Shown one piece after another: positions 12,292 to 33,502 of a stretch of DNA of 40,864 bases. Origin of the DNA: Thiomicrospira sp. (GTDB lineage: Bacteria; Pseudomonadota; Gammaproteobacteria; Thiomicrospirales; Thiomicrospiraceae); contig JAUUDE010000005.1 in assembly GCA_030826915.1 (NCBI GenBank), positions 1 to 40,864 on the forward strand, read 5' to 3'. Position 1 is the stretch's first letter; each line of letters begins with the position of its first letter. A program made the position numbers and the translations under genes. The notes under the pieces were generated by a model that had not been told where the DNA came from, made no database searches, and was given only the letters and a program-made list of their open reading frames with translations.

Positions 12292-13269
12292 TTACAATTG
12301 GCGGTTTAACCATAATTCTTCAGCTCGTTTGATGGCCATTTCAGCATCAAGCCTTTCAATCAGCATAAGCGCAACGGCCGTGGTTGCAACCACCGCTTTT
12401 ATTCCATAAGAGTCATCAGTTTTTCCTTGCCAAACATCGAGTAAAGTTTGAGTATTCCATTCATCTGGACGGCGATTACGTTCTGTAATTGAATTGAAAT
12501 TGACCGTTTGTAATTCCGAGTTTGACTTATCTGAAAAATAGAGTTTATTTAAAGCATCAGGGCGTATCTCTGGTTCACCGCCCTCTCCTTTAAACACAAG
12601 ATTGTAGTCTGCGCCATTCACCTTAAACGCCGCGTGATGCAGGTTCTCTACACCTTTATGAAAAATACCTTGAATACTGTACCTTGCGTTTAACGGATTC
12701 AACAATTTGACCGCTGTATTAAAAACTGTGCGAACACCAATCTCTGATTTGAGGTGTAATATTTCGCTAAGTTCCTTTGCAAAAGCTTTTAATGGCAAAT
12801 AAACCAAACTACCTTGAAACGCATATTGACCGGCTTCATCTAATGAACCCGCTTTATGAAAACCTAAATCCTTTAAAAAAGTCTCGGCATACTGCCTATC
12901 AGAGAATTGCCCTGAATCACCATGAACTATAACTTTATAACCACTCTCAACTAATAATTTAACACTTAATAAGAAATAAGGTGGATAGCGCCACTTACCA
13001 GCATAAGCGGAAATATCAAGATCAATACCTGCTTGTGTTTGCTCTAATTGATAATGTTTGCGCAGACCGGAAACAAACCCCATTAATTCATCGAGCGACT
13101 CACCATTTGCACGCATTAGTAACAGAAAAGCACCGAGTTGTTTTTCGGTGACATCACCAGAGAGGATCATCTCTATAGCCTCTTGAGCCTCTTCAATAGT
13201 AAGTGAACGTTTACTTTTAGGGCCTTTGCCGAGAATTCTTAAAAATTGACTAAATGGATGGTCTTTCAT
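12292..13269 (-). CDS. YbiB/TrpD2-type glycosyltransferase-fold protein
   Basis: A 325-residue protein of the anthranilate phosphoribosyltransferase fold. The N-terminal helical domain reads FLRILGKGPKSKRSLTIEEA...LSGDVTEKQLGAFLLLMRAN, as in YbiB. The PRPP-binding GTGGD of true TrpD is absent; the matching region reads AYAGKWRYPPYFLLSVKLLV. No other trp genes are near. E. coli YbiB is a DNA-binding homologue rather than an anthranilate enzyme, so I infer a non-tryptophan role. It lies downstream of the electron-transfer operon but is separated by a strong terminator, so it is probably transcribed on its own. Confidence 0.75.
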   Translation of the reverse strand: MKDHPFSQFLRILGKGPKSKRSLTIEEAQEAIEMILSGDVTEKQLGAFLLLMRANGESLDELMGFVSGLRKHYQLEQTQAGIDLDISAYAGKWRYPPYFLLSVKLLVESGYKVIVHGDSGQFSDRQYAETFLKDLGFHKAGSLDEAGQYAFQGSLVYLPLKAFAKELSEILHLKSEIGVRTVFNTAVKLLNPLNARYSIQGIFHKGVENLHHAAFKVNGADYNLVFKGEGGEPEIRPDALNKLYFSDKSNSELQTVNFNSITERNRRPDEWNTQTLLDVWQGKTDDSYGIKAVVATTAVALMLIERLDAEMAIKRAEELWLNRQL

Positions 13270-13321: not shown

Positions 13322-13346
13322 TAAAAAAGCTGCCTTTACGGCAGCT
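13322..13346 (-). terminator. Intrinsic terminator of the electron-transfer operon
   Basis: On the minus strand, a 7-bp stem AGCTGCC/GGCAGCT with a five-base loop is followed by TTTTTTATT. It lies about 77 bases after the stop of the diflavin reductase gene and closes that operon. Confidence 0.85.
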
Positions 13347-13422: not shown

Positions 13423-15009
13423 TTAATAGATATCTTTATGCAACCGATTAAGAACAAACTCTTCCCAACTCTGTTTAGCTTGTTCCATGGAATCGCAGCC
13501 TTCGAGGATGGCATGTTGTGCAACGGTTTCTACAGCGTCCCACATTGGTAAACTACCGCAAACATAGAGATGCGATTGTTGACTGATGGATTTCGCTAAC
13601 ATAGCCATATCTTGTTGCATCCAATCTTGAACATAAGATTTCTGCTCTGTTCTAGAAAAAGCCATTTTCAACTCAATGATACCTTGCTGATGACAACTTT
13701 CGAGAAATTCCTGATAAATAAAATCTTGTTTTGGATCTCTGATACCAAAATACAGAGTTATTTTTGGTCTCTCACTTGGAAAGATTCCGATAATTTTGGA
13801 TAAAAAACCAATAAATGGTGCAATCCCAGTACCCGTTGCCACCCAAATCATCTCTTGCTCTGTTTGTAAATGAAACCCAGGATGTGACTCTAGATAAAAT
13901 TCGGTAGAATTTTCATACTCTAATTGTTCACATAAAAAACCTGAACCTAAACCATTTTCTTGCCGTAAACACCCCGTTGCATAACTGTATTCATTCTTTT
14001 GCAAACCCACACAAAGATGTAGAGTTGTATAGTCTTGCCCGTCGCTAGCAACAGAATAACTTCTAGGAGATATTGGCACTAAAGCAAGTAACCACTCTTC
14101 CAATTTATCATATGGAATAGGATATTTTAAGAACCACTCTAACACATCGTATTGAGTCAATATTGCTGCTATTTTTTCTTCATCAGAAGCTAAATTAAGC
14201 AACTCCCAATCGTTGAGAAGCGCTCCCGTCTTCTTAACAACATTAGCGTTAATTTTGGTGATTTCAACATAGTTTTGTAGGTAATCAAATAGGGTTACTT
14301 TCTGGTTTTGATAATTTATTATCGTGTTTGATTCCAGCTTTAAACCTGATAATAACTCACGCACACGATAAGGGATATTCGTTGGTGTAATAGAAACGAC
14401 ATCACCCGCATTATATTGAAACGGTTCGTCAATCGCATCAAAAACCAAGTGGTATGTTTCTTTAACAGAAGCATCGTTTGTCAGTAGCAGTTTTTTACTC
14501 AGTTTATATTTAGCTTTCGGTTTACGAGCAAACTCATCAAGCTGAGCTAATAAAGTCTCTTCAGACAAACCGGATAGCTCCGATAACAAAGACAACGCCC
14601 AAGCTTCATACAAAACGAGAAAATTTTCATCAGCATAAACAGGAGCTGCGATGGCACTGGCGTTGTTTTCCATAAAGGCCTGGTTTAGTTTTTTACCAGC
14701 CCCACAGAAATTACTATAAGAACGACTACCCAAAGCAAACAGCGCATAACCTACTGAATCAAATTCATCTGATAAGGCAAGCTGATTATTTAAAAAATCC
14801 CGTCCATTTGAAGGAACTTCCCCATTCCCTGTAGTACTCACAAAACAAATTAAATTAGACTTTGCAAAACCCTGTGTAGCCAAATCATTCAAACAGAATA
14901 ACTTAGCGTCAAAAGACAGATTTTGACAACGCTTTGCAAAATCTTCAGCCAGTAATTTAGCGTTTCCGCCTTCACTTGCATAAGTGATATAAATAGCTGA
15001 TTGAGACAT
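13423..15009 (-). CDS. CysJ-like NADPH diflavin reductase
   Basis: A 528-residue FMN/FAD reductase. Order: flavodoxin domain (1-145, with STTGNGEVPSNG and ALGSRSYSNFCGAGKK), FAD-binding ferredoxin-reductase domain (about 165-370, with SPRSYSVAS as the RxYS motif), and NADPH domain (about 375-528, with GTGIAPFIGFL, YVCGS and a C-terminal aromatic). Members pass electrons from NADPH to sulfite reductase haemoprotein, nitrate reductase or haem proteins. No cysI is present; the adjacent globin makes a split-flavohaemoglobin partner plausible, and nitrate reductase is an alternative acceptor. The ATG at 15009 (MSQSAIYITYASEGGNA) is preferred over an in-frame TTG at 15027. It is last in the operon. 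Confidence 0.85.
   Translation of the reverse strand: MSQSAIYITYASEGGNAKLLAEDFAKRCQNLSFDAKLFCLNDLATQGFAKSNLICFVSTTGNGEVPSNGRDFLNNQLALSDEFDSVGYALFALGSRSYSNFCGAGKKLNQAFMENNASAIAAPVYADENFLVLYEAWALSLLSELSGLSEETLLAQLDEFARKPKAKYKLSKKLLLTNDASVKETYHLVFDAIDEPFQYNAGDVVSITPTNIPYRVRELLSGLKLESNTIINYQNQKVTLFDYLQNYVEITKINANVVKKTGALLNDWELLNLASDEEKIAAILTQYDVLEWFLKYPIPYDKLEEWLLALVPISPRSYSVASDGQDYTTLHLCVGLQKNEYSYATGCLRQENGLGSGFLCEQLEYENSTEFYLESHPGFHLQTEQEMIWVATGTGIAPFIGFLSKIIGIFPSERPKITLYFGIRDPKQDFIYQEFLESCHQQGIIELKMAFSRTEQKSYVQDWMQQDMAMLAKSISQQSHLYVCGSLPMWDAVETVAQHAILEGCDSMEQAKQSWEEFVLNRLHKDIY
14675..14684. repeat. AAGGCCTGGT repeat copy (inside diflavin reductase gene)
   Basis: AAGGCCTGGT, one mismatch from the CAGGCCTGGT core, continuing TTA. 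It encodes N-Q-A-F on the minus strand. Confidence 0.5.
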
Positions 15010-15121
15010 AATTATTTTCCAAATCAAATAATTAGAAGGACTCGGTTGAAACCATAAAAATATTTTTTATGATAAACCTGAGCCACATCGTGAAAACTGT
15101 TGGTATCTAAAACCGTTTAAA

Positions 15122-15598
15122 TTAACCAAATATCTTACCTAAAAAACCTTTTTCTTCAGGTTCTTTAGACTTAGCTAACCATTGACGATATTCTTCGGCT
15201 GCACCAATCATTGTTTTTGCTAAAACACCATAAACCTTTACCCATGCCGCTTTGACTTCTGGGGTAAATTCGTCTCCTAATCCTTTCTCAAGTGCAAATA
15301 GAAACGCTGCACCTACCGTATCATACTGAGAATCCTTAACACCCCAATCAACGTGTCTACGTCCAGACGCTTTTAATGCATCAACAATACTTCCAAGGTC
15401 ATTTAAACTGTCTACCGCAACCGTAATCATGTTCATTAGTTTTGCACCTTGCTCTCCCATGTCACCGGTAAAAAGCGCTTTAGCCTCTGGATCCAGTTCA
15501 AACAGTTTTGCATAAAAAATTTCTGCTGCGGTAGCAGAGATAGGTTTAACTTTTTCCCAAGACTCTTGGACTAATTTGATTTCTTCTTGACTTACCAT
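15122..15598 (-). CDS. Single-domain globin
   Basis: A 158-residue haemoglobin-fold protein without a reductase domain. The proximal histidine is visible in SGRRHVDWGVKDSQY, a pattern of bacterial myoglobin-like globins; the E-helix region reads GEQGAKLMNMI. The N-terminal QESWEKVKPISATAAEIFY is typical of the A and B helices. The ATG at 15598 has GGAGAA seven bases upstream and is preferred over a TTG at 15610. No export signal, so it is cytoplasmic. Such globins bind O2 or NO; with the diflavin reductase next door, NO dioxygenation is plausible but unproven. The C-terminus EEKGFLGKIFG looks like a small amphipathic tail. Confidence 0.9.
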   Translation of the reverse strand: MVSQEEIKLVQESWEKVKPISATAAEIFYAKLFELDPEAKALFTGDMGEQGAKLMNMITVAVDSLNDLGSIVDALKASGRRHVDWGVKDSQYDTVGAAFLFALEKGLGDEFTPEVKAAWVKVYGVLAKTMIGAAEEYRQWLAKSKEPEEKGFLGKIFG

Positions 15599-15676
15599 GT
15601 TGTTCTCCAAAATTTATTTTAAGCCCGGCTTACAAAAGAATTACCAGGCTGTTAAGTAAAAGGTTTTAAAAATACG

Positions 15677-16249
15677 TTAGATTGGAATACGGATTACGAC
15701 ACCACCCATAACATCACCCATTTTAAAGTCTGTTTTTGGAGAGTCTTTGTGTTCATTGTGACAAGTCACACAAACCTTAGCAGAAGCAAAGTCTGGATAC
15801 ACTGCAGTAAAATACTTTTTGCCACCCAGCTCTTCAGTTCCGTAGAAGTTTTGACCTTTATTATCAACAACATACTTCAAACCCTCTTTTTCCATTTCGG
15901 TTCTTGGAGCATTCTGTTTATTTATTGGCCATTCAGACTGTAGTGTGTAAGAAAAATTTGCCCCTCGTTCCTGTACCATTTCAGAGCCGTAACGCAACAT
16001 TTGTGCTGGAAGTACCAACGCTTTTTTATCTTCCCAGTGCTCATCTGCTTTAATCACCTTTTCTTTTGCCGCCAAACGGCCAACAATTAATTTTGTGTAT
16101 ACCGTTCTGTCAGAATCAATTACTTTGTGTATATTATCTGCCACCATTTTGTAAGGCATGCCTTCAGCTTTTTCTTCGCCGCCACATCCTGTTAAACCTG
16201 CTGCTAAACCTGCTACACCCATAGTTAAAACAATTGTTTTTAATTTCAT
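15677..16249 (-). CDS. Monohaem c-type DUF3365 (Tll0287-like) lipoprotein
   Basis: A 190-residue exported protein. The N-terminus has a lipobox, LTGC, with lipidation Cys at residue 22. The middle resembles the DUF3365/Tll0287-like haem domain (AAKEKVIKADEHWEDKKALVLPAQMLR, then a PINKQNAPRTEMEKEGLKYV segment). One haem-c site CVTCH (160-164) lies near the C-terminus. Tll0287 of a cyanobacterium is a c-type cytochrome; related domains act as redox or ligand sensors. In this operon it may shuttle electrons from, or sense redox state near, the multihaem protein. AAGGAG stands nine bases before ATG. Confidence 0.8.
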   Translation of the reverse strand: MKLKTIVLTMGVAGLAAGLTGCGGEEKAEGMPYKMVADNIHKVIDSDRTVYTKLIVGRLAAKEKVIKADEHWEDKKALVLPAQMLRYGSEMVQERGANFSYTLQSEWPINKQNAPRTEMEKEGLKYVVDNKGQNFYGTEELGGKKYFTAVYPDFASAKVCVTCHNEHKDSPKTDFKMGDVMGGVVIRIPI

Positions 16250-16358
16250 TTAAATTTACTCCTTGGATAAAAAATTCTTTGTTTTAAACTACGTCGTTGC
16301 AGCTTAATCATTAATGGTTGATTACTAGTTGAAATAAGTTCATACAAAAACCTTAAGA

Positions 16359-17747
16359 TTATCGATCACCTCCATGCGCTTTTTTTGCCCAATCTATACT
16401 CTCGACATGTATAGAAGGCATAGTTGAAAAATTATTGTCAATGAGTTTTTTGTCAGCCAGTGCGTCCAAAGTAAATTGCAACCCATGACACTTTAAACAA
16501 ACACCTCGCACCATTTTTTCATTTGGTCTCAAGTTTAAACTCTGGTTGTGCTCCACACGTACTTCATGTTTTCCTGACAGTGATTCATCTTCTTCAATCA
16601 CCACCCTTGGCATGTGACATGTAGCACAAGAAACACCGCTCCCCGGTCTTGCATTACCAGAAATTTCTTCATGCCATAAACCAAAGTGTTTAGATTTTTT
16701 ATAATTTTGGCTATGCACATCTGCATGACATTTGAGACAACTTTCTACCGCTGCCTTCTGTGGGGCAAAACTGTGTGAAGCGTGGCAACTCATACAAGTC
16801 AGTTGACTACCATGAGCCATCGGGTTCATTGGTAAACGAGCTTTGTCAGGCGTCATAGGCGTTAACCCTTGCTTGATACGCATACCATGTTTTCCATCTA
16901 AAAAGCCATCCGCTTCACGAGCATGACAAGTCATACAAACATCCATGCCTACTTTGTTTTGCCATTTTTGCTCCAAATTTGATTCCGTTTTAACCTGGTG
17001 ACACGCTTTACAGTTCACACCAGCCTTTGCATGAGAGCTTTCGACCCAATCATGTGAAATTTTGGAATCAATATGTTCAACGTAATTGGCATCCATATCT
17101 GTAATATTTAACGCTTTGACTTCCTTCTGCAACGCATCCATCCAAACTTCACTGTTTTTCATATCAACAACAGGGTGTTTTGAAACATCAACGTCATCTT
17201 TATGTAGCATTAAGAAGTCTTCATACAGCGCTGAATTATCATGATAGTTATGACATCCTCCTGTCGCACAAGTCTTAGTATTAAAGCCTTTGTGTGTTGG
17301 ACGCTCTTCATCCACATCCGCATGACATTTAATACAAAAGTCACTGGCTACGGTAACCGCCATTCCCGTATCTCGTTCAACTTGATGTTCTCCATGACAA
17401 GTGACACACGATAAAGCGTCAATTTTTTCTAAACGGTCGGCATTACGTGGATCAGCAAATTTCTTAGCTGGATGAGAGTCTTTCTGCATATTGAGTTGTT
17501 CGCTATGACATTGTAGACATGATTTATCTAGGCTCTTTAAACCGCCGAAACTATCAGTATGACAAGCTGAACAATTTTCTGTGATTTGATGGTGTGCAGA
17601 AGTCAGTTTTCCAGGTGAAAATATCTCTGCTGGTTCTGTTTTTAGCATCTGCCAAGCCAAGATTCCGGCAAGTACAGCAGTTAACACAATCCAGATTAAC
17701 CAAACCAGTTTGTTTGTACTTTTTTCTGTTTTAATTTGTTCGCTCAT
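16359..17747 (-). CDS. Membrane-anchored undecahaem cytochrome c
   Basis: A 462-residue protein with an uncleaved N-terminal anchor (about 14-34) and a periplasmic part with eleven predicted haem-c sites. Ten are CXXCH (starting at residues 59, 77, 114, 138, 246, 271, 318, 337, 374, 417) and one is an unusual CX4CH, CATGGCH at 160. There is no CXXCK site, so it is not a classical NrfA. The C-terminal half (HSQNYKKSKHFG, SCATCHMP, EHNQSLNLRPNE, CLKCHGLQF) resembles the hydroxylamine oxidoreductase/octahaem cytochrome superfamily in order and spacing; this is by eye. It starts 8 bp after the FAD membrane reductase stop, so the two are surely co-translated and likely form one electron path. Confidence 0.88.
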   Translation of the reverse strand: MSEQIKTEKSTNKLVWLIWIVLTAVLAGILAWQMLKTEPAEIFSPGKLTSAHHQITENCSACHTDSFGGLKSLDKSCLQCHSEQLNMQKDSHPAKKFADPRNADRLEKIDALSCVTCHGEHQVERDTGMAVTVASDFCIKCHADVDEERPTHKGFNTKTCATGGCHNYHDNSALYEDFLMLHKDDVDVSKHPVVDMKNSEVWMDALQKEVKALNITDMDANYVEHIDSKISHDWVESSHAKAGVNCKACHQVKTESNLEQKWQNKVGMDVCMTCHAREADGFLDGKHGMRIKQGLTPMTPDKARLPMNPMAHGSQLTCMSCHASHSFAPQKAAVESCLKCHADVHSQNYKKSKHFGLWHEEISGNARPGSGVSCATCHMPRVVIEEDESLSGKHEVRVEHNQSLNLRPNEKMVRGVCLKCHGLQFTLDALADKKLIDNNFSTMPSIHVESIDWAKKAHGGDR

Positions 17748-17755
17748 TCTCTACC

Positions 17756-19756
17756 CTAAAAATAGTACACACTGACAATATGAAATGTTAATAAGATAGG
17801 CAGTGTCCAAACTGCCAGAATGTGACCCCAACCAAATAACTTTCTGAACTTACTGGCAAAATAAGTTGCTGTTTTATGCTCAACACCGAGCCACATTGCC
17901 ATTAATCCACCTATCACCAATACCAGAATAAAATCAATCAACAGCCATTGATTAAGGCCTTCTCCACTTAAATTACCAGTATGTAATAACAAAGTAGCAA
18001 CGGCTATTAATCCAATCACAACATGGATTAAACGCATACCATTAAAAAAGCTTTTAAGCTTGTGAAAATACCGTTTACTCAGCGATAGACTCATCGCCAA
18101 TAAAGAAAGCCCTAACAAAGTGAAGCCGGTAATTTGTTTATTAAAACCATCCAACCAAATTTGATCATAGCCGCCTGACAAGACAGTATCGCTAGCAGGA
18201 ATTTCAGGCATAAAGCTGATCATCAACGCTAATAAAAAAGTGACAAAACCAACTGTTAGCAAACCTTTAAAGTACGGAGCAGCTTGTTTAGCTACTTTTC
18301 CACCCGTTTCTTCTTCTAATAGAGATTGCAGTTTTGGCTGACAAGAACCACAAACAGTACAGGCATGCGTTTTCTGCTGTAAATCATCAATAGTTTGGCA
18401 GCCGGAGATAATGGCATCGGAAAGTTCGCCACGGGTGACACTCATACAATTACAAACAATGGCATTTTCCGGCCAATAGGCGATAGACGCCTCATTACTT
18501 GGAAAAAAGTTACCTGAGTATTTGAATTGAATAAATTTGATTAGAGAGAAACGACGCTTGCTAGAGACTGCTTCTGCTAGGCGATTTGCTTCTTGCCATT
18601 CACCGATACCAATGACATACACCACGCGGTTATTATCTGCCAATATACAACGGTAATTGCCTTTTTGATCTTGGTATTCGTAAACCTTAATACCTTGTCT
18701 TTGAAGATCTTCCTCTGAGCCTGCACAGAAAACTTCGATTCCAGCTACTTTAAGAAACGTGGTAAATTCAGAACCTTGATATACACCCTGCTTACCTAAT
18801 AGATGATTAACCGCCACACTAGCTTGATCATAACCAGGTGAAACAATTCCTAAGGTCTGATTTTTGTATTCGGCACAATCTCCAATTGCGTAGATATCAT
18901 CGTCAGAGGTTTGTAAATATTCATTTACCACAATACCTGTGGCGTAGGCCAATTTGGCTTGTTTGGCCAATTCGATATCTGGCTTTGAACCAGTGGCAAA
19001 AACCAATGTATCACATTTAAAAACCTCATCTGAATGCGCTGTATGAAATCCAATTAATCGATCTGCTTCATCGGAAACAATCTCTTTGATTAAACAGTCT
19101 GATAAAACATCTATCCCCTGTTTTTCAAAGAACTGTTGAACTTTTTCAGCTGACGTTTTATTTAACTGACGATAAAGCACCCAAGCATTGACATCAACAA
19201 TGGTCACCTTAGTTCCATGACGACTTAGCCCTTTGGCTATTTCTAACCCTAAAAGGCCTGCTCCAACGACAACGGTATGATGACTACGCCCCATACGAGC
19301 CAATAAATGATCAGCATCTTTTAAATCTCTAAAAGTGTAAACACCTCTAACATCAAGGTTTTTTACCGGAGGAACAAAACTTTTTGCCCCAGTAGCAAAC
19401 ACCAACTTACTATAAGGTTGTCTAATCCCTTTTTTATCAACAACATACTTCTTTGATGTATTGATTTCTGTGATTTTATTACCTAAATGTAACTTAACTT
19501 GTCCAGAACTGAATATGGGATCATTTGCTATATCAAAATAAAGATCTTGATTGGAGACTTCACCAGACAAATAGAGAGAGAGTTTAACTCGGTTATAAGG
19601 AAGGTAATCTTCGTCGGCATAAAGTACAACCGCCTGCTCTGATTGTTCAGCGAGTTTTTGGCAGTAGTTGATTCCAACAGGCCCACCGCCAATAACAACG
19701 ACAGGATATTCTGTAGGCTCGACACTTTGTATATTTGAAGAATGCTCAACGCTCAT
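17756..19756 (-). CDS. NirB-like FAD/[2Fe-2S] reductase fused to a bis-haem b membrane domain
   Basis: A 666-residue fusion. Residues 15-400 are an NAD(P)H-FAD disulfide-reductase-like module as in NirB (VIGGGPVG, VVVGAGLLGLE, DDIYAIGDCAEY). Residues 434-475 are a BFD-type [2Fe-2S] domain with CNC at 435-437 and CGSC near 469-472. Five helices follow (about 499-516, 541-560, 575-593, 604-624, 643-665). Helices 3 and 5 each carry an HX13H pair: H578/H592 and H645/H659. Basic loops 561-574 and 628-640 put the flavin and Fe-S part in the cytoplasm, so the histidines can hold one inner and one outer haem b, as in ferric reductase/NOX-type domains. Predicted role: NAD(P)H to periplasmic cytochrome c electron transfer. 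Confidence 0.85.
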   Translation of the reverse strand: MSVEHSSNIQSVEPTEYPVVVIGGGPVGINYCQKLAEQSEQAVVLYADEDYLPYNRVKLSLYLSGEVSNQDLYFDIANDPIFSSGQVKLHLGNKITEINTSKKYVVDKKGIRQPYSKLVFATGAKSFVPPVKNLDVRGVYTFRDLKDADHLLARMGRSHHTVVVGAGLLGLEIAKGLSRHGTKVTIVDVNAWVLYRQLNKTSAEKVQQFFEKQGIDVLSDCLIKEIVSDEADRLIGFHTAHSDEVFKCDTLVFATGSKPDIELAKQAKLAYATGIVVNEYLQTSDDDIYAIGDCAEYKNQTLGIVSPGYDQASVAVNHLLGKQGVYQGSEFTTFLKVAGIEVFCAGSEEDLQRQGIKVYEYQDQKGNYRCILADNNRVVYVIGIGEWQEANRLAEAVSSKRRFSLIKFIQFKYSGNFFPSNEASIAYWPENAIVCNCMSVTRGELSDAIISGCQTIDDLQQKTHACTVCGSCQPKLQSLLEEETGGKVAKQAAPYFKGLLTVGFVTFLLALMISFMPEIPASDTVLSGGYDQIWLDGFNKQITGFTLLGLSLLAMSLSLSKRYFHKLKSFFNGMRLIHVVIGLIAVATLLLHTGNLSGEGLNQWLLIDFILVLVIGGLMAMWLGVEHKTATYFASKFRKLFGWGHILAVWTLPILLTFHIVSVYYF

Positions 19757-19820: not shown

Positions 19821-19877
19821 TTTTTTTCAAAAAAAAAACAAAAAAAGCTCATACCGGAAATTTGTTCCAGTATGAGC
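19821..19877 (-). terminator. Leader terminator (candidate attenuator) before the electron-transfer operon
   Basis: On the minus strand, GCTCATAC (19877-19870) pairs perfectly with GTATGAGC (19854-19847), with an inner GGAA/TTCC pairing, followed by TTTTTTT and more T-rich sequence. It lies about 170 bases after the cysG stop and ends about 65 bases before the start of the FAD membrane reductase. That is more consistent with a leader attenuator than with a simple cysG terminator, though it could be both. Confidence 0.8.
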
Positions 19878-19887
19878 CTCTCCACTC
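19874..19887 (-). promoter_or_regulatory. Candidate antiterminator hairpin GAGU-N6-GCUC
   Basis: Minus strand GAGT-GGAGAG-GCTC: a four-pair stem (one G-U) with a six-base loop whose fourth base is G. Its GCTC is the first four bases of the terminator 5' arm, so the two structures exclude each other. The same stem and spacing occur in the nrtA leader. Confidence 0.45.
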
Positions 19888-20044: not shown

Positions 20045-21439
20045 CTATGAAATGCATAAACGTTGCCTCACTTTAATCACATCACCTATCACAATCAATG
20101 CAGGTGGCTTAATTTGATTATTCTGTATGATTTCTGTGAAATGCGATAACTCTGTAATTGTCACCTTTTGCTCTGGTGTCGTTCCTTTTTCGATAATTGC
20201 CACCGGCATTTCAGGATTCACACCATTGCTTAATAAGCCTTTTTGAATTTTAGGTGCGTTTTTAATTCCCATATAAAACACCATCGTATCGCCAGACTGA
20301 GCCAAACGAGCGTAGTCAATTCCTTCTGCTCCTGCTTGCTGATGACCTGTAATCAATGCAACTGACTGAGAAAATTCACGATGCGTTAAAGGGAAACCTG
20401 CATAAGCAGAACAACCCGCTGCTGCGGTAATACCAGGTACAACTTCATAAGAAACGCCATGCTGAACTAACACTTCAGCCTCTTCCGCTCCACGACCAAA
20501 GATATAAGGATCGCCACCTTTTAAACGCGCAACTCTTTTACCTTGCTTGGCTAATTCCACCATCATTAGCCCAATATCAGGCTGCTGGACTTTATGCCAT
20601 TTATCTTTTTTACCAACGTAAATACGTTCAGCTTCACGACGAGCCATTTCAATAATTTCAGGAGCAACCAGACGATCATATAAAATAACATCCGCTTGTT
20701 GTAAAAGGCGCAGAGCTTTAAAGGTCATAAGGTCAGGATCACCTGGCCCAGCACCAATCAGATAAACTTCACCTTCTGGAATCTCTTGACCCGATTTTTT
20801 AACGGCATTAATCTCATTTTCAATATAGCTTTCTGCCTCTTCAACACGACCTTGCACCGTTTTATCTATAAATGTACTGACTAAAAGCTTTTCCCAAAAC
20901 GCTTTTCTTCCATCTAGGTCTTGAATTGCCTCTTTTACCTTTTGACGGTATCGCCCAACCAAATCGGTTAAACGACCAAAACCTGCAGGAATTAACGTTT
21001 CTAAACGGGCTTTCATCACCCTTGCCAAAACAGGAGAACGGCCACCCGTTGAAATTGCTATGGTCATTGGTGACCTATCCACAATGGCAGGTAGTATAAA
21101 ATCACAGTATTCAGTTTGGTCTGCTACATTGACAGGAATGTTATTAACCTGGCAATATTGATAGACCGCTTGATTAATCTCTTCATCATCGGTTGCCGAT
21201 ATTACATATTTGGGCTTGGCGATATGCTCAATGACTTCTGTCGAAAACAGATCCATCTGCCACACAATTTTTCCATGTGACAAATGATGCTTCATCTCAG
21301 TTTTTAGCTCTGGGGCAATAACAGTAACAATGGCGCCAGCTTTAATAAAAAGATCCGCCTTACGCGCCGCTACTGCTCCACCACCTACAATTAAGCAGTG
21401 TTGGTCTTTTATATTGACAAATATGGGTAAATAATCCAC
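20045..21439 (-). CDS. cysG: Sirohaem synthase CysG
   Basis: A 464-residue fusion (E. coli CysG is 457). The N-terminal half is precorrin-2 dehydrogenase/ferrochelatase (VDYLPIFVNIKDQHCLIVGG with GGGAVAARK; ISTGGRSPVLARV). The C-terminal half is uroporphyrinogen III methyltransferase (GAGPGDPDLMTFKALRLLQQ; LKGGDPYIFGRGAEEAE; GITAAAGCSAYAG). It makes sirohaem, required by NirB. Start: the longer frame begins with TTG at 21475; GTG at 21439 has AAGGAA at good spacing and begins VDYLPIF like the family's MDYLPLF, so it is chosen. It faces away from soxYZ and sits in the nitrate cluster. Confidence 0.96.
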   Translation of the reverse strand: MDYLPIFVNIKDQHCLIVGGGAVAARKADLFIKAGAIVTVIAPELKTEMKHHLSHGKIVWQMDLFSTEVIEHIAKPKYVISATDDEEINQAVYQYCQVNNIPVNVADQTEYCDFILPAIVDRSPMTIAISTGGRSPVLARVMKARLETLIPAGFGRLTDLVGRYRQKVKEAIQDLDGRKAFWEKLLVSTFIDKTVQGRVEEAESYIENEINAVKKSGQEIPEGEVYLIGAGPGDPDLMTFKALRLLQQADVILYDRLVAPEIIEMARREAERIYVGKKDKWHKVQQPDIGLMMVELAKQGKRVARLKGGDPYIFGRGAEEAEVLVQHGVSYEVVPGITAAAGCSAYAGFPLTHREFSQSVALITGHQQAGAEGIDYARLAQSGDTMVFYMGIKNAPKIQKGLLSNGVNPEMPVAIIEKGTTPEQKVTITELSHFTEIIQNNQIKPPALIVIGDVIKVRQRLCIS

Positions 21440-21588
21440 AGAATTCCTTTTTTTATTCAAACCTGAGTAGTTCAATTTTTTATTGCTATTTTGTTATGCT
21501 TTAGTTTAGCGTTTAATATCAAATTAATTCATTTAATTTATGCGATTTTTTATAATATTCTTTACTTAATTACTCTTAAAAAACCAAA

Positions 21589-21832: not shown

Positions 21833-21891
21833 TAATCAACTGAGTGTTTAATTTTATAACACTTTACTTTCAAACCAGGAGTTTAATTATT

Positions 21892-22359
21892 ATGAAACGT
21901 AGATCATTTTTAAAAAGTACTTTAGCGACTGGTGCTGCCGTTGTTGCGGCTAACGCTGGTCTTTTAACACCAACGATCGTTCTCGCTGACTGGAACAAGA
22001 AGGCATTTTCTGCTAAATCAACCGATGATGCTTTGAGTAATGTCTTTGGTTCAGCCACTGCAGAAGAATCAGGAGACATTAAACTTAAAGCGCCGGCCAT
22101 AGCGGAAAATGGTGCAGTTACTCCAGTAACGGTTGATGCTTCTGGTTTAGCAGGCGTTGAATCTATTGCCATTATGGCAAGTAAAAACCCGCAACCTCTT
22201 GTTTGCCAATATACATTCAGTGCTGGTGCGGTAGGTTATGTCTCAACTCGAATTAAAATGGGACAAACCATGAATGTCATTGCTGTTGTAAAAACAGGCG
22301 ACAAACTACTTAAAGCACAACAAGAAGTCAAAGTAACCATTGGTGGTTGTGGTGGGTAA
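21892..22359 (+). CDS. soxY: Sulfur-oxidation carrier protein SoxY
   Basis: A 155-residue carrier of sulfur intermediates in the periplasmic Sox thiosulfate-oxidation pathway. It has a Tat signal (RRSFLK then ATGAAVVAANAGLL) and the diagnostic C-terminal GGCGG, whose cysteine carries the substrate. The upstream in-frame ATG at 21844 would put 16 extra residues before the Tat motif; AGGAG about ten bases before 21892 supports the later start. It pairs with soxZ 71 bp downstream. Other sox genes are absent from the window, so this is a separate soxYZ locus, common in sulfur-oxidising gammaproteobacteria. Confidence 0.96.
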   Translation: MKRRSFLKSTLATGAAVVAANAGLLTPTIVLADWNKKAFSAKSTDDALSNVFGSATAEESGDIKLKAPAIAENGAVTPVTVDASGLAGVESIAIMASKNPQPLVCQYTFSAGAVGYVSTRIKMGQTMNVIAVVKTGDKLLKAQQEVKVTIGGCGG

Positions 22360-22430
22360 AAAACCTACACAAACAACAATAACTAGAACAAACAAAACAT
22401 TAAAGTTTAAGACTTTTAAAGGATGACAAT

Positions 22431-22742
22431 ATGAGTATTAAAATCAGAATGCGTAGTAAATCAAAAGGTGGCGTTGCAGAAGTTAAAGCACTTATTAAAC
22501 ACCCAATGGAATCTGGCGCACGTATGAATAAAAAAACCGGCAAGCCTTATCCAGCTAAATACATCGATATGGTTCAAGTTTCTGTAAATGGCACTCCTGC
22601 TGTAGATGCACAATGGTCAGGTGCTGTATCAGCAAATCCATACATGGCTGTAAAAGTGAAAGCTAATTCAGGTGATAAAGTGGAAGTTTCTTTAACAGAT
22701 AACACGGGTGCTAAAGGAAATTCAGCCATCACTCTCAAGTAA
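22431..22742 (+). CDS. soxZ: Sulfur-oxidation protein SoxZ
   Basis: A 103-residue immunoglobulin-like partner of SoxY, with which it forms the SoxYZ carrier. The family pattern is clear: SIKIRMRSKSKGGVAEVKAL, IKHPMESG, then SANPYMAVKVKANSGDKVEV. It has no own signal peptide and is exported with SoxY through Tat. AAAGGA precedes the ATG. It is followed by a long hairpin terminator shared with the convergent nasA gene. Confidence 0.96.
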   Translation: MSIKIRMRSKSKGGVAEVKALIKHPMESGARMNKKTGKPYPAKYIDMVQVSVNGTPAVDAQWSGAVSANPYMAVKVKANSGDKVEVSLTDNTGAKGNSAITLK

Positions 22743-22860: not shown

Positions 22861-25557
22861 TCATTTCAGTTCTTTTGCAAGAATCTCAGTCAATTCTGGC
22901 ACACACGAACCGCAATTGGTTCCGGCTTTCAGTGCTTTCCCTATCGCTTCAACTGAAGTAAGTTTGTCTTTATGAATCGCCTCAACAATGGTGTTGATTC
23001 CAACTCCAAAACAAGAACAGATGGTCTGCCCTTCATCTTTGGCACCTGATTGTTGCCCTGCTAGTAGACTTAAACGCGTTTTAGCGTCGATTTCGTTTTT
23101 TGTAAAGACGGAACCTAGCCAGCTTCGGCTTGGCATTTCGATACTTGGTGCAATAAACACAACAGACTGTAAACGACCGTCAACAATACGAGCACTACGA
23201 TAGCGATCACCACTTGCATCCTGATATTGAACCTTATCACCATCTAGACCTAAAATAGAATCCGTCCATACTTCTAAATCTACTGGTCGCACCGTACAGG
23301 CAATTTCATATCGGTAGAACTGCTTGCCTTTTACCTTGACCCAATACTCGATTCCCTGAGTTTCAATCGGCTCACGACTTAAAATAAAGCCATACCATTT
23401 GGCCTTAAACGGTTCAATTTTTACTGGCGAATGTTTGGACTCTGGCTGACCTGAAAGCGGATCTCCCACGGGTTGAACCAGTACATCCACACGACCATGG
23501 CTAGAGTATTGCGCCGTCCAGTGAATCGGCACAAATAAGCTTCCTGGACGAATGGAGTCACTAACCTCAACACGAGCAATCACCTGCTTGCCTTCACCTA
23601 ATGGGCTAGTTAATTTAGCGAGTTCACCCTCAACTAACTGATACTTTTTGGCATCGTCAGGATGAACCGTTACATAGACTTCGTCCTTGTGCGCCATCAA
23701 CTTAGCGGTTTTCGCGGTTCGAGTCATGGTATGCCACTGGTCACGAACACGACCCGTATTCAATATCAATGGAAACTCTTCAGTTGTTGGATGCACTGGA
23801 GGTCTAGGTGTTATAGCAATAAACTGCGCTTTACCGCTAGCAGTAAAGAATTTACCATCTGCAAACATGCGTTTAGTACCATTTGGACTATTTGCTGATA
23901 ACGGCCACTGGAAGGACTCCATTGAAGAGTATTCACCTTCACTGATTTTATCTAATAAGGAGATATCAAAATCACGTGTACCGTTATTTTCAAAACCAGA
24001 TAATGCTGCGTGTTCTCTAAAAACATCTGCGGCAGATTGATAATTAAATTCTTTATCAAAGCCCATTTTTTTAGCAACTTCGCTTAGAATCCACCAATCG
24101 GGCTTGGCGTTTTCAGGCCCTTGCATAAACTTGCGTTGACGAGAAACGGTTCGGTCTGAATTGGTGACAGTTCCATCGGTTTCACCCCAAGTTAAGGCTG
24201 GTAATAATACATCAGCTACATTTGTGGTATCCGTGCTTTGAACACAGTCTGATACCACAACCATTTCACAATCAAGCAAAGCTTGTTTAACGGCATCGGC
24301 ATCAGGCATAGAGACCACTGGATTAGTATTCATAATCCAAATAGCTTTGATTCTTTTATCGGCCACCGCTTGGAACATATCAATCGCTTTCAAGCCGTTT
24401 TCTTGTGCCATATTGTTGGCATTCCAAAAACGTGAGACCAAATCGATACTTTCTGGCTTATTAAAGTCCATGTGAGCGGCAAGTTGGTTGGCTAATCCAC
24501 CCACTTCACGACCACCCATTGCATTAGGTTGACCAGTAATTGAGAATGGTCCCATACCCTCTTTACCGATACGCCCTGTTGCTAAGTGGCAGTTAATAAT
24601 AGCGTTGGATTTATCCACTCCTGAAGAGGACTGATTAACCCCTTGCGAATACAAAGAGACCATTTTTTGACGTGCCACGGCCCATTCAAAAAATTGGCGC
24701 AAGTCTTGTTCATCCAGTTCACACTGCTCGGCAACTTCGGCAATGCTGCCCTGTTGTTCCTGTGCTTTGTCAATGGCTGCTTGAAAACCTTCAGTGTTAT
24801 TTTCTATAAATGTCGTATCCAAGACATTGGCTTCTGACAATTGCGATAACAGTCCATTAAACAACACAGCATCTGTTCCTGGCTTTAAAGCGAGATGCAA
24901 GTCTGCGATATCACAGGTTGCTGTTTTACGAGGGTCAACGACCACAATTTTCAAATCTGGGCGACGACGCTTTTCAGCGGCTATACGTTGATAGACAATC
25001 GGGTGTGCCCAAGCGGTATTTGAGCCAACAATCACAATCAAGTCGGCTAAATCTAAATCTTCATACGAACAAGGAACCGTATCCGAACCAAAGGCACGTT
25101 TATAACCAACTACCGCGGAGGCCATACACAAACGAGAATTGGTATCGATATTGGCACTTCCCATAAACCCTTTAATCAGCTTATTGGCCACGTAGTAATC
25201 TTCGGTTAAAAATTGCCCCGATACATAAAAAGCTACGGCATCCGAACCATGCTCTTTGATTACCGAACTGAATTTATCTGCAACGGTGGCTAATGCTGAA
25301 TTCCAGCTAACGACTTCTCCATTCACTTGTGGTTCTAACATACGACCATCAAAATCAACCGTTTCACCTGCTGAAGAGCCTTTAACACACAAACGCCCAA
25401 AGTTAGCCGTATGATTTTCTGAGCCGACAACCTTCACCTCAAACGAATCGAGATTTGTACCCGATTTTTTGACTGGTTTAGGCGAGATATCCATCCCACA
25501 ACCAACCCCACAATATGGGCAAGTGGTTTGGATTGTTTGGTTTTCTGACATTGGCAT
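22861..25557 (-). CDS. nasA: Assimilatory nitrate reductase catalytic subunit NasA
   Basis: An 898-residue molybdopterin enzyme that reduces nitrate to nitrite in the cytoplasm. N-terminal [4Fe-4S] motif CPYCGVGCG at residues about 13-21; molybdenum-ligand Cys near 143 in SRLCMASAVVGYKRAFGSD; MGD-binding blocks (IVVVDPRKTATCDIADLHL, WIMNTNPVVSMPDAD). A C-terminal BFD-type [2Fe-2S] domain (about 846-893: ICSCFGVG and TNCGSCVPEL) marks the NasA class that takes electrons from a FAD reductase; the protein encoded at 28573-29811 is the natural donor. A second ATG two codons in is possible. It follows nirD by 63 bp, probably in the nirB operon. Confidence 0.96.
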   Translation of the reverse strand: MPMSENQTIQTTCPYCGVGCGMDISPKPVKKSGTNLDSFEVKVVGSENHTANFGRLCVKGSSAGETVDFDGRMLEPQVNGEVVSWNSALATVADKFSSVIKEHGSDAVAFYVSGQFLTEDYYVANKLIKGFMGSANIDTNSRLCMASAVVGYKRAFGSDTVPCSYEDLDLADLIVIVGSNTAWAHPIVYQRIAAEKRRRPDLKIVVVDPRKTATCDIADLHLALKPGTDAVLFNGLLSQLSEANVLDTTFIENNTEGFQAAIDKAQEQQGSIAEVAEQCELDEQDLRQFFEWAVARQKMVSLYSQGVNQSSSGVDKSNAIINCHLATGRIGKEGMGPFSITGQPNAMGGREVGGLANQLAAHMDFNKPESIDLVSRFWNANNMAQENGLKAIDMFQAVADKRIKAIWIMNTNPVVSMPDADAVKQALLDCEMVVVSDCVQSTDTTNVADVLLPALTWGETDGTVTNSDRTVSRQRKFMQGPENAKPDWWILSEVAKKMGFDKEFNYQSAADVFREHAALSGFENNGTRDFDISLLDKISEGEYSSMESFQWPLSANSPNGTKRMFADGKFFTASGKAQFIAITPRPPVHPTTEEFPLILNTGRVRDQWHTMTRTAKTAKLMAHKDEVYVTVHPDDAKKYQLVEGELAKLTSPLGEGKQVIARVEVSDSIRPGSLFVPIHWTAQYSSHGRVDVLVQPVGDPLSGQPESKHSPVKIEPFKAKWYGFILSREPIETQGIEYWVKVKGKQFYRYEIACTVRPVDLEVWTDSILGLDGDKVQYQDASGDRYRSARIVDGRLQSVVFIAPSIEMPSRSWLGSVFTKNEIDAKTRLSLLAGQQSGAKDEGQTICSCFGVGINTIVEAIHKDKLTSVEAIGKALKAGTNCGSCVPELTEILAKELK

Positions 25558-25620
25558 AAAAGGGTCTTCTTTAAACTTAGAAATTAATTAATGATGGCTA
25601 TAAACACTTAGGGTTTTAGG

Positions 25621-25941
25621 CTACAACTTAACGAGTACTTGGTTATTTTCAATTTTAGTTTCGTAAGTAGGAATAGAGACCCCTTCCACATCCATACACT
25701 CACCTGTTTTTAGGTTGTAATGTTGTTTTTGTAGAGGCGCAGCCACCATAAACTCACCTTTTAAGTCTCCAATCAAACCTCGAGACATCACATTGGCTTT
25801 ACCAATTGGATCGTAATTATTTAATGCATATACTTCGTCATTTATATAAAACAATGCAACTTGGGTATCATTAATTAGAGCCGCAACTCCTGAATTTTTA
25901 ACTAAGTCATCTGTAGAACAAACTTGTACAAATTCACTCAT
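25621..25941 (-). CDS. nirD: Nitrite reductase small subunit NirD
   Basis: A 106-residue Rieske-fold subunit of cytoplasmic NADH-nitrite reductase. The fold is kept (ALFYINDEVYALNNYDPIG; MVAAPLQKQHYNLKTGECMD), but the Cys/His cluster ligands of true Rieske proteins are missing, as is normal for NirD. The ATG at 25941 has AAGGAA eight bases upstream, so the extra 14 residues of the longer frame (from 25983) are dropped. It is separated from nirB by 91 bp containing two copies of the AGGCCT palindrome. Confidence 0.94.
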   Translation of the reverse strand: MSEFVQVCSTDDLVKNSGVAALINDTQVALFYINDEVYALNNYDPIGKANVMSRGLIGDLKGEFMVAAPLQKQHYNLKTGECMDVEGVSIPTYETKIENNQVLVKL

Positions 25942-25960
25942 TTTGTTTTCCTTATTTTCT

Positions 25961-25995
25961 ACCAGGCCTAGTATCTTTAACAACCAGGCCTGGTT
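25961..25995. repeat. Two AGGCCT palindromes between nirB and nirD
   Basis: ACCAGGCCTAGT at 25961-25972 and the perfect 14-mer AACCAGGCCTGGTT at 25982-25995, ten bases apart. Either could form a hairpin in the nirB-nirD mRNA, but there is no following T-run on the minus strand. Confidence 0.7.
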
Positions 25996-26032
25996 AAATT
26001 ATATTTGTGTAATAATTCGCTATAATTGATTG

Positions 26033-28576: not shown

Positions 28577-29811
28577 GCTACTTTTTCCTTTTCTGAGCTT
28601 TGACTTGCTGACGGCTGATAACCTTCGCCAAAAACTAATGTATCTCTATAAGCAGACATATCGTTCTGCTCAACTAAATTATCAAATATCCAATTAGAGC
28701 CGGTCACATCACCAAACATGACCGCACCCTGAATTTTGTTATCTTTCAAAACAACCTTACGATAAATGTTTTGACTTAAATCTTTATAAACTAGTGACTC
28801 TGAGCCTTCTGAGTCATGAAAATCACCGGCAGAGAACAAGCTAATCCCCGTTACTTTTAATTTGGTAGAGATAAAGCTCCCTTGATAGGCCGATTTTTTA
28901 CCTGCGAGTGTTTCTGCTAAAACTTGTGCTTGTTCATATAAAGGAGCAACCAAACCGTAGACCATACCTCTATGCTCAACACACTCTCCTAAGGCATAAA
29001 TACCGTCTACTGATGTTTCTAACTGGTCATTAACCACAATGCCCCGATTGACTTCCAAATCAAGCTTTTTGCCAACACCAATATTTGGACGAATCCCCAC
29101 GGCCATAACCACCAAATCGGCATCCAGCACTCGACCATCGGACATTTTTACACCGGTTACAAAATCATCCCCCAGAATTTCAGAGGTTTGTGCAGACATG
29201 GCGAACTTCATACCATTCGCTTCAAGACTTTTTTGAAGTAGACCGCCAGAGATAGGGTCCATTTGAACCTCCATTAAGACGTCACCAAGGTGAACAACTG
29301 TGACATCCATGCCGCGTTTAATAAGCCCGTTCGCGGCTTCTAAACCAAGCAGGCCTCCACCAATTACCACCGCTTTTTTCTTGGTAGCCGTAGAATGAAT
29401 CATAAAATTAACATCGCGAATATCACGAAATGCAACCACGCCTGGTAGTTCATGACCTGGCACAGGGATTATGAAGGGATTAGAACCCGTTGCTATGATA
29501 AGTTTATCGTACGAATAGGTCGCACCTAAATCTGTGCTAACTGTTTTGGATTGTTGATCAACGGCCACAATTTCAGTACTGGCATGAAGGTGAACATCAC
29601 GTTCTTCAAACCAATCATGGTCATGTGTCATTATTTCAGGGAGCTGTTTTTCACCTGCAAGAACTGGTGATAGCATAATGCGGTTATAACCGCCATTCGG
29701 CTCTTTATTGAATACGCGAATATCGTATTTATCTGGTGCTTCTTGTAGAAGGCGCTCAATAAATCGCGCGCCAACCATACCTGAACCAATAAGTATGAGT
29801 TTCTGCTTCAT
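28573..29811 (-). CDS. FAD-dependent NAD(P)H reductase, likely electron donor of NasA
   Basis: A 412-residue relative of the NirB N-terminal module (LIGSGMVGARFIERLLQEAP; VIGGGLLGLEAANGL; DGIYALGECVEHRGMVYGLV). It lacks a BFD domain and ends in a short acidic/basic tail. Klebsiella NasC and Bacillus NasB are the NADH-linked donors for their NasA; this protein fits that role because NasA here carries the missing [2Fe-2S] domain. It is first in the operon FAD reductase-nirB-nirD-nasA. A small inverted repeat (GCTCAA...TTGAGC, 29831-29850) sits 20 bases before the start. Confidence 0.85.
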   Translation of the reverse strand: MKQKLILIGSGMVGARFIERLLQEAPDKYDIRVFNKEPNGGYNRIMLSPVLAGEKQLPEIMTHDHDWFEERDVHLHASTEIVAVDQQSKTVSTDLGATYSYDKLIIATGSNPFIIPVPGHELPGVVAFRDIRDVNFMIHSTATKKKAVVIGGGLLGLEAANGLIKRGMDVTVVHLGDVLMEVQMDPISGGLLQKSLEANGMKFAMSAQTSEILGDDFVTGVKMSDGRVLDADLVVMAVGIRPNIGVGKKLDLEVNRGIVVNDQLETSVDGIYALGECVEHRGMVYGLVAPLYEQAQVLAETLAGKKSAYQGSFISTKLKVTGISLFSAGDFHDSEGSESLVYKDLSQNIYRKVVLKDNKIQGAVMFGDVTGSNWIFDNLVEQNDMSAYRDTLVFGEGYQPSASQSSEKEKVA

Positions 29812-29905
29812 TGCATTCCTTTACTTTTAGGCTCAATACTGTTGTTGAGCCATAATGTGACATTAGGACCCAACAATAGATCATATTATCATTTTCTGAT
29901 GACAT

Positions 29906-29921
29906 AACAGGATTTATGCCA
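29906..29921 (-). promoter_or_regulatory. Candidate sigma-54 promoter of FAD reductase-nirB-nirD-nasA
   Basis: TGGCATAAATCCTGTT on the minus strand: -24 TGGCA, GG-N10-GT spacing. The flanking TTTTTGGCATA is similar to the elements at 19916 and 39506. Expected start near 29895. Confidence 0.45.
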
Positions 29922-30040
29922 AAAAATTACAAAAACAATATAACAAAACAATATCAATACCTTATAAGGGTTTTATCATTATCTCACCAAACACCACTCA
30001 GTTTTATCGATTCAATACAGTGCGAAAACCAAATCATTAT

Positions 30041-30046
30041 GGTGCA
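30041..30046 (+). promoter_or_regulatory. Candidate NtrC half-site
   Basis: GGTGCA, a perfect NtrC half-site placed between the two divergent sigma-54-like promoters. The second half (CAAATC at the right spacing) is poor. Confidence 0.3.
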
Positions 30047-30131
30047 TTACTGACTAAAACACTCAATACATTAGCAATAAATAATATCCATTTAAACTAT
30101 AAGTAATTGTAATATAAGTCTTTAATACCCC

Positions 30132-30147: not shown

Positions 30148-30200
30148 TTAACCCATTAAATCAAACAATGCCGTTTATTTTTAAGAGCAAAGAGGTCTCT

Positions 30201-31676: not shown

Positions 31677-31697
31677 TCAAATTTAATACCCTATCTT

Positions 31698-33481: not shown

Positions 33482-33502
33482 AACCAATCCTCCTAAAAGA
33501 CA

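Follow-up and report, generated by a model that had tools for sequence, protein, structure and literature searches.

The reduction of nitrate for assimilation is usually regarded as confined to the cytoplasm. The closest functional precedent for the genes described here is the narK-bjgb-flp-nasC system of Bradyrhizobium japonicum, in which a globin and an NAD(P)H flavoprotein are linked with nitrate assimilation, NasS-NasT control, and NO detoxification, while the part of that report on which our comparison draws mentions neither a membrane domain of Flp nor a multihaem cytochrome or a Tll0287-like protein (PMC4724949). The locus of the present study combines a membrane-fused NirB-type reductase (FUS), an 11-haem cytochrome c (MHC11), a Tll0287-like monohaem lipoprotein (TLL), and a globin. 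Literature searches found no description of a module of these genes, in agreement with a preliminary description of the locus that knew of no named system with this gene set.

Gene set and layout of the locus

The window, that is, the whole analysed stretch of 40,864 nucleotides from Thiomicrospira sp. (contig JAUUDE010000005.1), contains the following features.

22861-38814: host nitrate-assimilation cluster, with ORFs for nasA, nirD, nirB, nasB-like, narK, nrtC, nrtB, nrtA, a second nrtA-like gene, and an ANTAR regulator (names presumed from the sequences themselves)
20045-21475, minus strand: cysG (sirohaem synthase), neighbour on the FUS side
19841-19883, minus strand: longer terminator-like hairpin upstream of FUS, fold z -3.67
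17756-19756, minus strand: FUS, membrane-fused NirB-type reductase, 666-aa ORF
16359-17747, minus strand: MHC11, 11-haem cytochrome c, 462-aa ORF
15677-16249, minus strand: TLL, Tll0287-like monohaem lipoprotein, 190-aa ORF
15122-15610, minus strand: GLB, single-domain globin, 162-aa ORF, likelier ATG at 15598
13423-15027, minus strand: CysJ-like diflavin reductase, 534-aa ORF, likelier ATG at 15009
13328-13346, minus strand: intrinsic-terminator-like site downstream of the diflavin gene, 7-bp stem and T tract
12292-13269, minus strand: trpD-like gene of the glycosyltransferase family (PRK09071), neighbour on the opposite side

The five genes that the preliminary description had placed on one strand were all recovered as minus-strand ORFs; the 8-bp gap it had seen between FUS and MHC11 follows from the ORF coordinates, and the terminator it had placed after the last gene corresponds to the stem and T tract running from 13346 to 13328. 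Its cofactor assignments were matched in a Pfam search by Pyr_redox_2 and Fer2_BFD, multihaem cytochrome families, a Tll0287-like family, Globin, and Flavodoxin_1 with FAD_binding_1 and NAD_binding_1. The hairpin at 19841-19883 may be the terminator of cysG or a leader attenuator.

In 21 of 21 same-genus loci, cysG and the trpD-like gene are adjacent; in the window they are separated, with the module between them. Because the junction is closed in the relatives, the module is probably an insertion in the cysG/trpD-like pair beside the nitrate-assimilation cluster, with precise loss of the module in the relatives as a conceivable alternative. With a GC content of 0.385, the module is no different from the rest (0.393), so that transfer is not indicated by composition.

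Conservation of the module

The loci compared with the window were the best 80 of 427 relatives, and are therefore biased toward good matches; they span five phyla, and their genes were called as longest ORFs. The weakest of the 427 relatives may be other multihaem proteins. FUS is present in 79 of the 80 loci, in each case upstream on the same strand, TLL in 78, and a globin of either type in 65 (single-domain in 59, truncated in 6), while neither type was found in the sequence around the other 15, some of which is cut by contig ends. Because this order recurs across the 80 loci, chance association is excluded, and the conserved module consists of four genes: FUS, MHC11, TLL, and a globin or, instead of it, a truncated globin. 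The lack of association elsewhere that would have refuted the preliminary description does not apply to four of the five genes. It does apply to the diflavin reductase, which was found near none of the 80 loci and whose full-length homologues among same-genus relatives reach just 25-28% identity. The CysJ-like diflavin reductase, despite its common strand, is not part of the conserved module.

In a separate genome sample, FUS or its membrane-domain part directly adjoins MHC11 in 26 of 28 MHC11-positive genomes, 23 of them recognised by position and the others being G084, G320, and G527; the 28 carriers exclude G319, which has a partial match in a 72%-complete genome. FUS lies on a contig other than that of MHC11 in G302. 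G318 has a divergent MHC11 homologue, with no match to FUS, TLL, or globin within its 1.5-kb flanks. Between-locus distances of FUS and MHC11 correlate at 0.65, better than with NrtB (0.32), but we give these correlations little weight because globin shows no clear within-module pattern (globin-NrtB, 0.47). No relative was found among viral contigs.

Proposed electron path and association with nitrate assimilation

FUS is composed of an FAD/NAD domain (about residues 18-320), a BFD [2Fe-2S] domain (433-482), and a five-helix membrane domain (496-665). Its N-terminal FAD/NAD and BFD parts resemble those of NirB (TIGR02374)/NasC-type FAD/BFD reductases: residues 19-491 align with residues 1-476 of NirB, and the match with the NirB profile, which scores 354.8 bits against a cut-off of 578.35, ends at position 476 of 794. 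Unlike NirB, FUS has membrane helices in place of the sirohaem/[4Fe-4S] half, and a Pfam search found no sirohaem family in it. The membrane domain had no Pfam match, the best being DUF4231 at E 0.26, and in a fold search with FUS the hits were taken up by the reductase domain. The NOX/ferric reductase and MsrQ-type proteins are two-b-haem membrane proteins that move electrons across the membrane, and they share with this domain two His pairs, spaced by 14 residues on each of two helices; the likeness lies in this spacing. The corresponding histidines of FUS (H578, H592, H645, and H659) are proposed ligands whose positions suit a stack of two b haems. They are kept, together with the Gly motifs including that for NAD binding and the four BFD cysteines, in 59 of 59 rows, which comprise the window and 58 of the 79 loci after short or cut rows and those without the strict N-terminal motif, including those from Verrucomicrobiota, Planctomycetota, and Poribacteria, had been dropped.

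Downstream of these components, TLL, a haem-c protein of the sensor fold, matches sCache_heme (PF11845) at 75.1 bits (cut-off 24.1) and keeps its haem motif (C160, C163, and H164) in 79 of 79 rows. It represents the stand-alone form of the sCache_heme (Tll0287/DUF3365) proteins with CXXCH. No conserved Cys was found outside CXXCH and the lipobox, and sequence and profile searches of the PDB with TLL gave no match onto which the axial-ligand position might be mapped. If it lacks a conserved axial Cys, as this suggests, TLL would differ from the stand-alone protein of P. putida and resemble the NO-binding protein of P. azotoformans (PMC12889525). The globin keeps its pocket residues Y29, Q50, F43, and H82 in 60 of 60 rows. 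We take these to be B10 Tyr, E7 Gln, CD1 Phe, and F8 His, respectively, and by its sequence GLB has the pocket of an NO-dioxygenase-like single-domain globin. Its closest solved structure is 3s1i (5e-28), presumably Hell's Gate globin I, in which Y29 and Q50 have counterparts at equal positions; this comparison concerns the protein only, and GLB is set apart by belonging to the present module.

The link to nitrate use proposed in the preliminary description gained support from several directions. Nitrate-assimilation genes are located near 31 of the 80 loci, and near 19 of the 41 that have at least 6 kb of sequence on both sides, without counting the FUS genes of L094 and L119, which score best against NirB. 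A NasA-like match was found in 24 of the 28 carriers versus 24 of 52 non-carriers (p 7e-4), the latter being genomes with no MHC11 match chosen at roughly even steps through the genome list and not at random. In addition, hexaloop hairpins that occur in tandem and carry A1 and G4, the mark of ANTAR/NasT targets (PMC3369931), precede 14 of 64 fusion genes (12 of 55 lineages) versus 10 of 617 other genes, some of which may be unreal (p 1e-9), and the same search detected the pair before 11 of 31 nrtA-like genes as a positive control. The tandem pair is present for part of the family only. The leader of FUS in the window contains a single hairpin with the hexaloop AGAGGC on a stem of 4 pairs, of which up to two are G-U, and this hairpin overlaps the 5' arm of the terminator-like one; no strict ANTAR pair was found in this leader, and an Rfam search of it gave matches only below gathering scores. 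A link to denitrification was rejected because cd1 nitrite reductase, a source of NO, is not tracked by the module, being present in 4 of 28 carriers and in 4 of the 24 NasA-bearing non-carriers, one of the latter weakly.

We therefore favour, with moderate confidence, the reading that the module exports electrons from NADH across the inner membrane, is linked with the nitrate-assimilation regulon, and has a globin as its partner. Electrons would pass from NADH through FAD, [2Fe-2S], the b haem on the cytoplasmic side, and that on the periplasmic side to an MHC11 wire, which might deliver them to small periplasmic haem proteins, namely TLL and, where present, a small cytochrome c. The globin would bind or oxidise NO in the cytoplasm, and the purpose of the whole might be to protect both sides of the membrane from the NO or nitrite of nitrate assimilation. 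NO handling fits best as the role for the terminal acceptor. A more specific and only tentative proposal is that this is an unnamed, widespread system in which a relative of NirB, after loss of the catalytic half, acquired a new bis-haem-b membrane domain and is coupled to the MHC11 wire. Electrons from NADH would then reach the periplasm by a route that is induced by nitrate and ends in a labile-ligand haem-c protein reacting with NO, and the system would amount to a second, respiratory-style arm of nitrate assimilation. Counting against the export reading, no nitrate-assimilation gene was detected near 22 of the 41 well-flanked loci, 4 of the 28 carriers have no NasA-like match, and export of electrons would use up membrane potential. 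Also speaking against it are the failure of the module to track cd1 nitrite reductase, the 15 loci in which neither globin type was found, the divergent homologue of G318 without matches to the partner genes in its flanks, and the leader in the window, in which a strict ANTAR pair is lacking. If the export reading is true, nitrate users in several phyla would handle electrons or NO on the periplasmic side as well during nitrogen assimilation.

Flow in the opposite direction, from periplasmic or quinol-derived electrons via MHC11, the b haems, and [2Fe-2S] to NasA or NirB, would build membrane potential and would save NADH in lithotrophs. The N-terminal FAD and BFD make-up of FUS, which is that of donors to assimilatory nitrate reductase, and the names of several carriers, which point to sulfur or C1 oxidisers, suit such import. 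We nevertheless consider it unlikely, since the NAD-binding Gly motif is invariant in FUS and RuBisCO, present in 14 of 28 carriers, is no more frequent there than in the 24 of the 52 non-carriers that have a NasA-like match (15 of 24), which leaves a link with lithotrophy unsupported. A separate NasB is also equally scarce in the two groups, with 2 of 28 carriers having one and likewise 2 of the 24 non-carriers, of which a further two have tandem fusions; because non-carriers lack it as often, the idea that FUS replaces the reductase of NasA is unsupported.

Similarly improbable is a redox valve that, whenever the redox balance is altered by nitrate metabolism, discharges excess NADH through the wire and a small cytochrome c to a c-type oxidase, with any connection to NO secondary. 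A gene for a small monohaem cytochrome c does occur in 32 of the 80 loci, between TLL and the globin in the 25 having both, but it was found neither in the other 48 loci nor in the window, and the valve leaves unexplained why so many loci carry a globin.

The 11-haem cytochrome

MHC11 carries 10 CXXCH motifs and one CX4CH motif, and its N-terminal helix resembles a membrane anchor of the inner-membrane type, as expected for the anchored 11-haem cytochrome first described. The 10+1 arrangement is found in 81 of 81 rows, and in 26 of 28 rows of the 11-haem profile, G318 and G527 having 11 CXXCH and no CX4CH. Each of 11 further (distal) His residues, equal in number to the haems, is conserved in 80-81 of 81 rows, which is consistent with bis-His ligation throughout, and from its sequence MHC11 appears to serve as a wire and not as a reductase of nitrite or hydroxylamine. 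The path from NAD(P)H through FAD, [2Fe-2S], and two b haems to the 11-haem protein, as originally drawn, is supported by proposed ligands along it that are invariant or nearly so.

That MHC11 itself reduces nitrite or hydroxylamine in the periplasm seems quite improbable to us, even though the C-terminal half of its predicted model (about residues 216-443; model pLDDT 72) may have a fold like that of the HAO/octahaem nitrite reductase superfamily (Z 6.3-9.2, rmsd 3.8-5.7 over 180-209 residues versus HAO/ONR) and its sequence is weakly similar to NrfA/ONR. A Foldseek search with the model gave no match at E < 0.001. The catalytic haem of NrfA and ONR is bound by CXXCK, and this motif is absent in the 80 loci and the window; MHC11 further differs from that superfamily in its extra N-terminal five-haem part. 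The conserved set of further His also argues against a reductase, though one of the 11 could conceivably be catalytic rather than a ligand, and a NirB-sized frame is in any case present in 23 of the 28 carriers. It is scarcely credible that the module belongs to a chain for extracellular electron uptake like the Uet undecahaem complex (porin UetC, trihaem neighbours, and UetJ). The haem number is equal, and some carriers come, judged from titles, from biocathode-type samples, but a comparison of neighbouring genes in the 80 loci found none with exactly three CXXCH motifs and just 3 further ORFs having at least two, and the N-terminal helix of MHC11 resembles an anchor of the inner-membrane type.

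The primer of a Thiomicrorhabdus 11-haem gene (PMC13293256) had no match in the window at up to 3 mismatches. In a quick tree of MHC11, the branch of the window row is long and its position lacks support. Two parts of the module, a membrane domain for which Pfam has no family and an 11-haem wire whose ligand set hardly varies, are testable in cultured carriers. Cultured carriers include Filomicrobium insigne, Halochromatium glycolicum, and Blastopirellula marina.

Gene content and conservation of the module

The preliminary description placed five same-strand genes in one operon, and ORF calls on the window confirm all five at 13423-19756 of the minus strand, together with the 8-bp gap reported between genes one and two. 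The products, classified by Pfam and NCBIfam, and two terminator-like sites seen in the sequence are as follows.

17756-19756, minus strand: NirB-like FAD/BFD reductase with a membrane domain (the fusion)
16359-17747, minus strand: multihaem cytochrome (the 11-haem protein)
15677-16249, minus strand: Tll0287-like haem protein
15122-15598, minus strand: globin
13423-15009, minus strand: CysJ-like diflavin reductase
13346-13328: terminator-like site, 3' of the last gene
19883-19841: second terminator-like site, upstream of the first gene

The single terminator that had been proposed to end the operon is matched by the site after the last gene, and it is accompanied by another such site before the first.

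The conserved unit is four genes rather than five. A scan of named genomes yielded 427 relatives among 486 candidate stretches, and the best 80 of these 427 were retained (judging by record titles, 70 Pseudomonadota, 5 Verrucomicrobiota, 3 Poribacteria, 1 Planctomycetota, and 1 Nitrospirota). Within these best 80 loci, the expected co-occurrence of the fusion and 11-haem genes was found in 79, the fusion lying upstream on the same strand in 79/79. The Tll0287-like gene is present in 78/80, and a globin gene in 59/80, with a truncated globin in six others; the substitution by a second globin family argues that a globin function belongs to the module. Association elsewhere therefore holds for four of the genes, but a place for the diflavin reductase in the set is not supported, no CysJ-like gene having been detected near any of the 80 loci at E 1e-4. 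Full-length diflavin homologues of same-genus relatives share only 25-28% identity, and a 185-aa frame in one of these relatives (G017) matches the flavodoxin part at 46%. A small cytochrome c (~128 aa, Cytochrome_CBB3 family; for example, L032:12168-12551) occurs in 32/80 loci and sits between the Tll0287-like gene and globin in 25 having both, and none was seen in the window.

A second sample agrees with this result. Matches to the 11-haem profile, the window's genome counted in each case, were found in 27/369 genomes of the class and 3/299 of the phylum sample, and these searches provided 28 carrier genomes. A fusion-sized frame is present in 24 of them, beside the 11-haem gene in 23 and on another contig in one (G302), while in G084, G320, and G527 the membrane-domain part of the fusion lies directly upstream of the 11-haem gene; only G318 among the 28 has no fusion within 1.5 kb of that gene. 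A protein search of 58 genomes (the window's own and relatives) found the full-length fusion outside the window only in G046 (39%) and G051 (36%), both of other families. The 11-haem and Tll0287-like genes adjoin the fusion in both, followed by a truncated globin in G046 and by a small cytochrome c and then globin in G051. At two Verrucomicrobiota loci (L087 and L121), the Tll0287-like gene is located upstream of the fusion, not downstream of the 11-haem gene.

As the preliminary description had supposed, no named system with this gene set was found in literature searches, which reached few subscription papers; each part belongs to a known kind, and their combination appears undescribed. Published work places the Tenderia undecahaem cytochrome and the UetJ protein of iron oxidisers in a complex with a porin and trihaem cytochromes (PMC5371394, PMC10734462). 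A trihaem ORF was found at 0/80 loci, and by this comparison of gene content the module is probably distinct from that Uet complex.

Predicted electron path

In the fusion, 59/59 aligned rows keep the glycine motifs for FAD and NAD, all four cysteines of the BFD domain, and histidines 578, 592, 645, and 659. In its structural model (mean pLDDT 89), five helices span 496-665, with 578/592 on helix three and 645/659 on helix five. Because the BFD domain is taken as cytoplasmic, the helix order leads us to infer that 578 and 645 lie close to the inner face, that 592 and 659 lie close to the outer one, and that haems are bound. For the 181-residue C-terminal part, the best Pfam hit has an insignificant E of 0.26.

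Across 81 aligned rows, the window's and those of the 80 loci, the 11-haem protein always has exactly 10 CXXCH motifs and one CX4CH, and another 11 histidines are kept, each in 80 or 81 rows. Since these equal the haems in number, each haem would have one distal ligand, which is consistent with a pure electron wire, and no CXXCK motif occurs in the 81 proteins. It is possible that one conserved histidine is catalytic instead of a distal ligand. In the model, which is of moderate quality (pLDDT 72), the second half is similar to HAO and to octahaem nitrite reductases, with Z 9.2 to 6.3; Foldseek gave no E under 0.001, and sequence matches are weak. The first helix is probably an anchor that stays uncleaved.

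As in the homologous NirB and NasC-type reductases, NADH would be the electron source of the fusion, and an unbroken route to the periplasm would run through the histidines of the membrane domain and on through the 11-haem wire. This NAD(P)H-to-periplasm path, already proposed in the preliminary description, is our firmest reading and is quite probably correct, given the conserved cofactor motifs and histidines of both proteins.

The divergent homologue in G318 (L058) has 11 CXXCH and no CX4CH, and no match to the fusion, Tll0287-like protein, or globin was found within 1.5 kb of it; it possibly represents a second use of this cytochrome. The G527 protein also has 11 CXXCH without CX4CH, yet a diverged fusion and a Tll0287-like gene are kept there.

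Nitrate link and possible roles

Y29, Q50, F43, and H82 of the globin, which we take to be pocket positions B10, E7, CD1, and F8, are kept in 60/60 rows, and the closest solved structure is 3s1i. In the Tll0287-like protein, CXXCH is kept in 79/79 rows, and no other cysteine is conserved except that of the lipobox (35/79). A 2026 preprint (PMC12889525) reports weak NO binding by a stand-alone Pseudomonas putida member, whose ligation is Cys/His and which is not made tight-binding by removal of the Cys, but tight binding by a signalling member without axial Cys. The protein of the module resembles the P. putida member in standing alone but has no conserved Cys, and for that reason may possibly bind NO.

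Nitrate-assimilation genes were found in 31 of the best 80 of 427 loci; where at least 6 kb was available on both sides, they were present in 19/41 and not detected in 22/41. NasA-like proteins occur in 24/28 carriers vs 24/52 non-carriers (Fisher p 7e-4). NasR and other ANTAR proteins are described as binding a pair of hairpins whose six-base loops have A as the first and G as the fourth base (PMC3369931), and leader RNA binding by NasT as preventing termination (PMC6759348). Hairpin pairs of this type precede 14/64 fusion genes vs 10/617 other genes (p 1e-9), and 11/31 nrtA-like genes as the positive control; random stretches drawn from these loci gave them in 22/2154 cases. When relatives were merged at 75% identity, 12/55 lineages had pairs. 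At six of the 14 pair-bearing loci, no nitrate-assimilation gene passed the threshold in the stretch available, one of these loci (L098) having a weak NarK-like match. The window's own leader has a single weak hairpin of this type and no strict pair.

NO handling would fit as the role of the module because of the globin, the haem-c protein, the nitrate link, and the precedent of Bradyrhizobium japonicum, in which a globin and a flavoprotein are reported to guard against NO arising in nitrate assimilation (PMC4724949). The module might possibly act as a redox valve. Reverse flow, with electrons passing inward to nitrate reductase, is also possible, but neither the missing NasB in carriers nor the enrichment in autotrophs that it predicts was borne out. 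The module showed no association with cd1 nitrite reductase, an argument against NO made by this denitrification enzyme being the target.

Position of the module in the window

The 11-haem gene was detected in none of the 31 other genus genomes searched, some of which are 79-88% complete. A cysG search matched 23/32 genus genomes, and in 21/21 loci with enough flank (L189-L209) cysG adjoins a trpD-like gene or shares a few bases with it, while 6775 bp separate the two in the window. The simplest account is that the module was inserted between them. Its GC content is not an outlier in the window, and in a quick tree the branch leading to the 11-haem protein of the window is long.

Between cysG and nasA, on the opposite strand at 21844-22742, lie genes presumably soxY- and soxZ-like, and such genes also adjoin cysG in same-genus loci L190, L192, L193, and L200. 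The product of 31760-33481, 3' of narK, is one that we take to resemble a phosphatase-Ser/Thr kinase fusion; similar genes are found in G051 and at 4/80 module loci.
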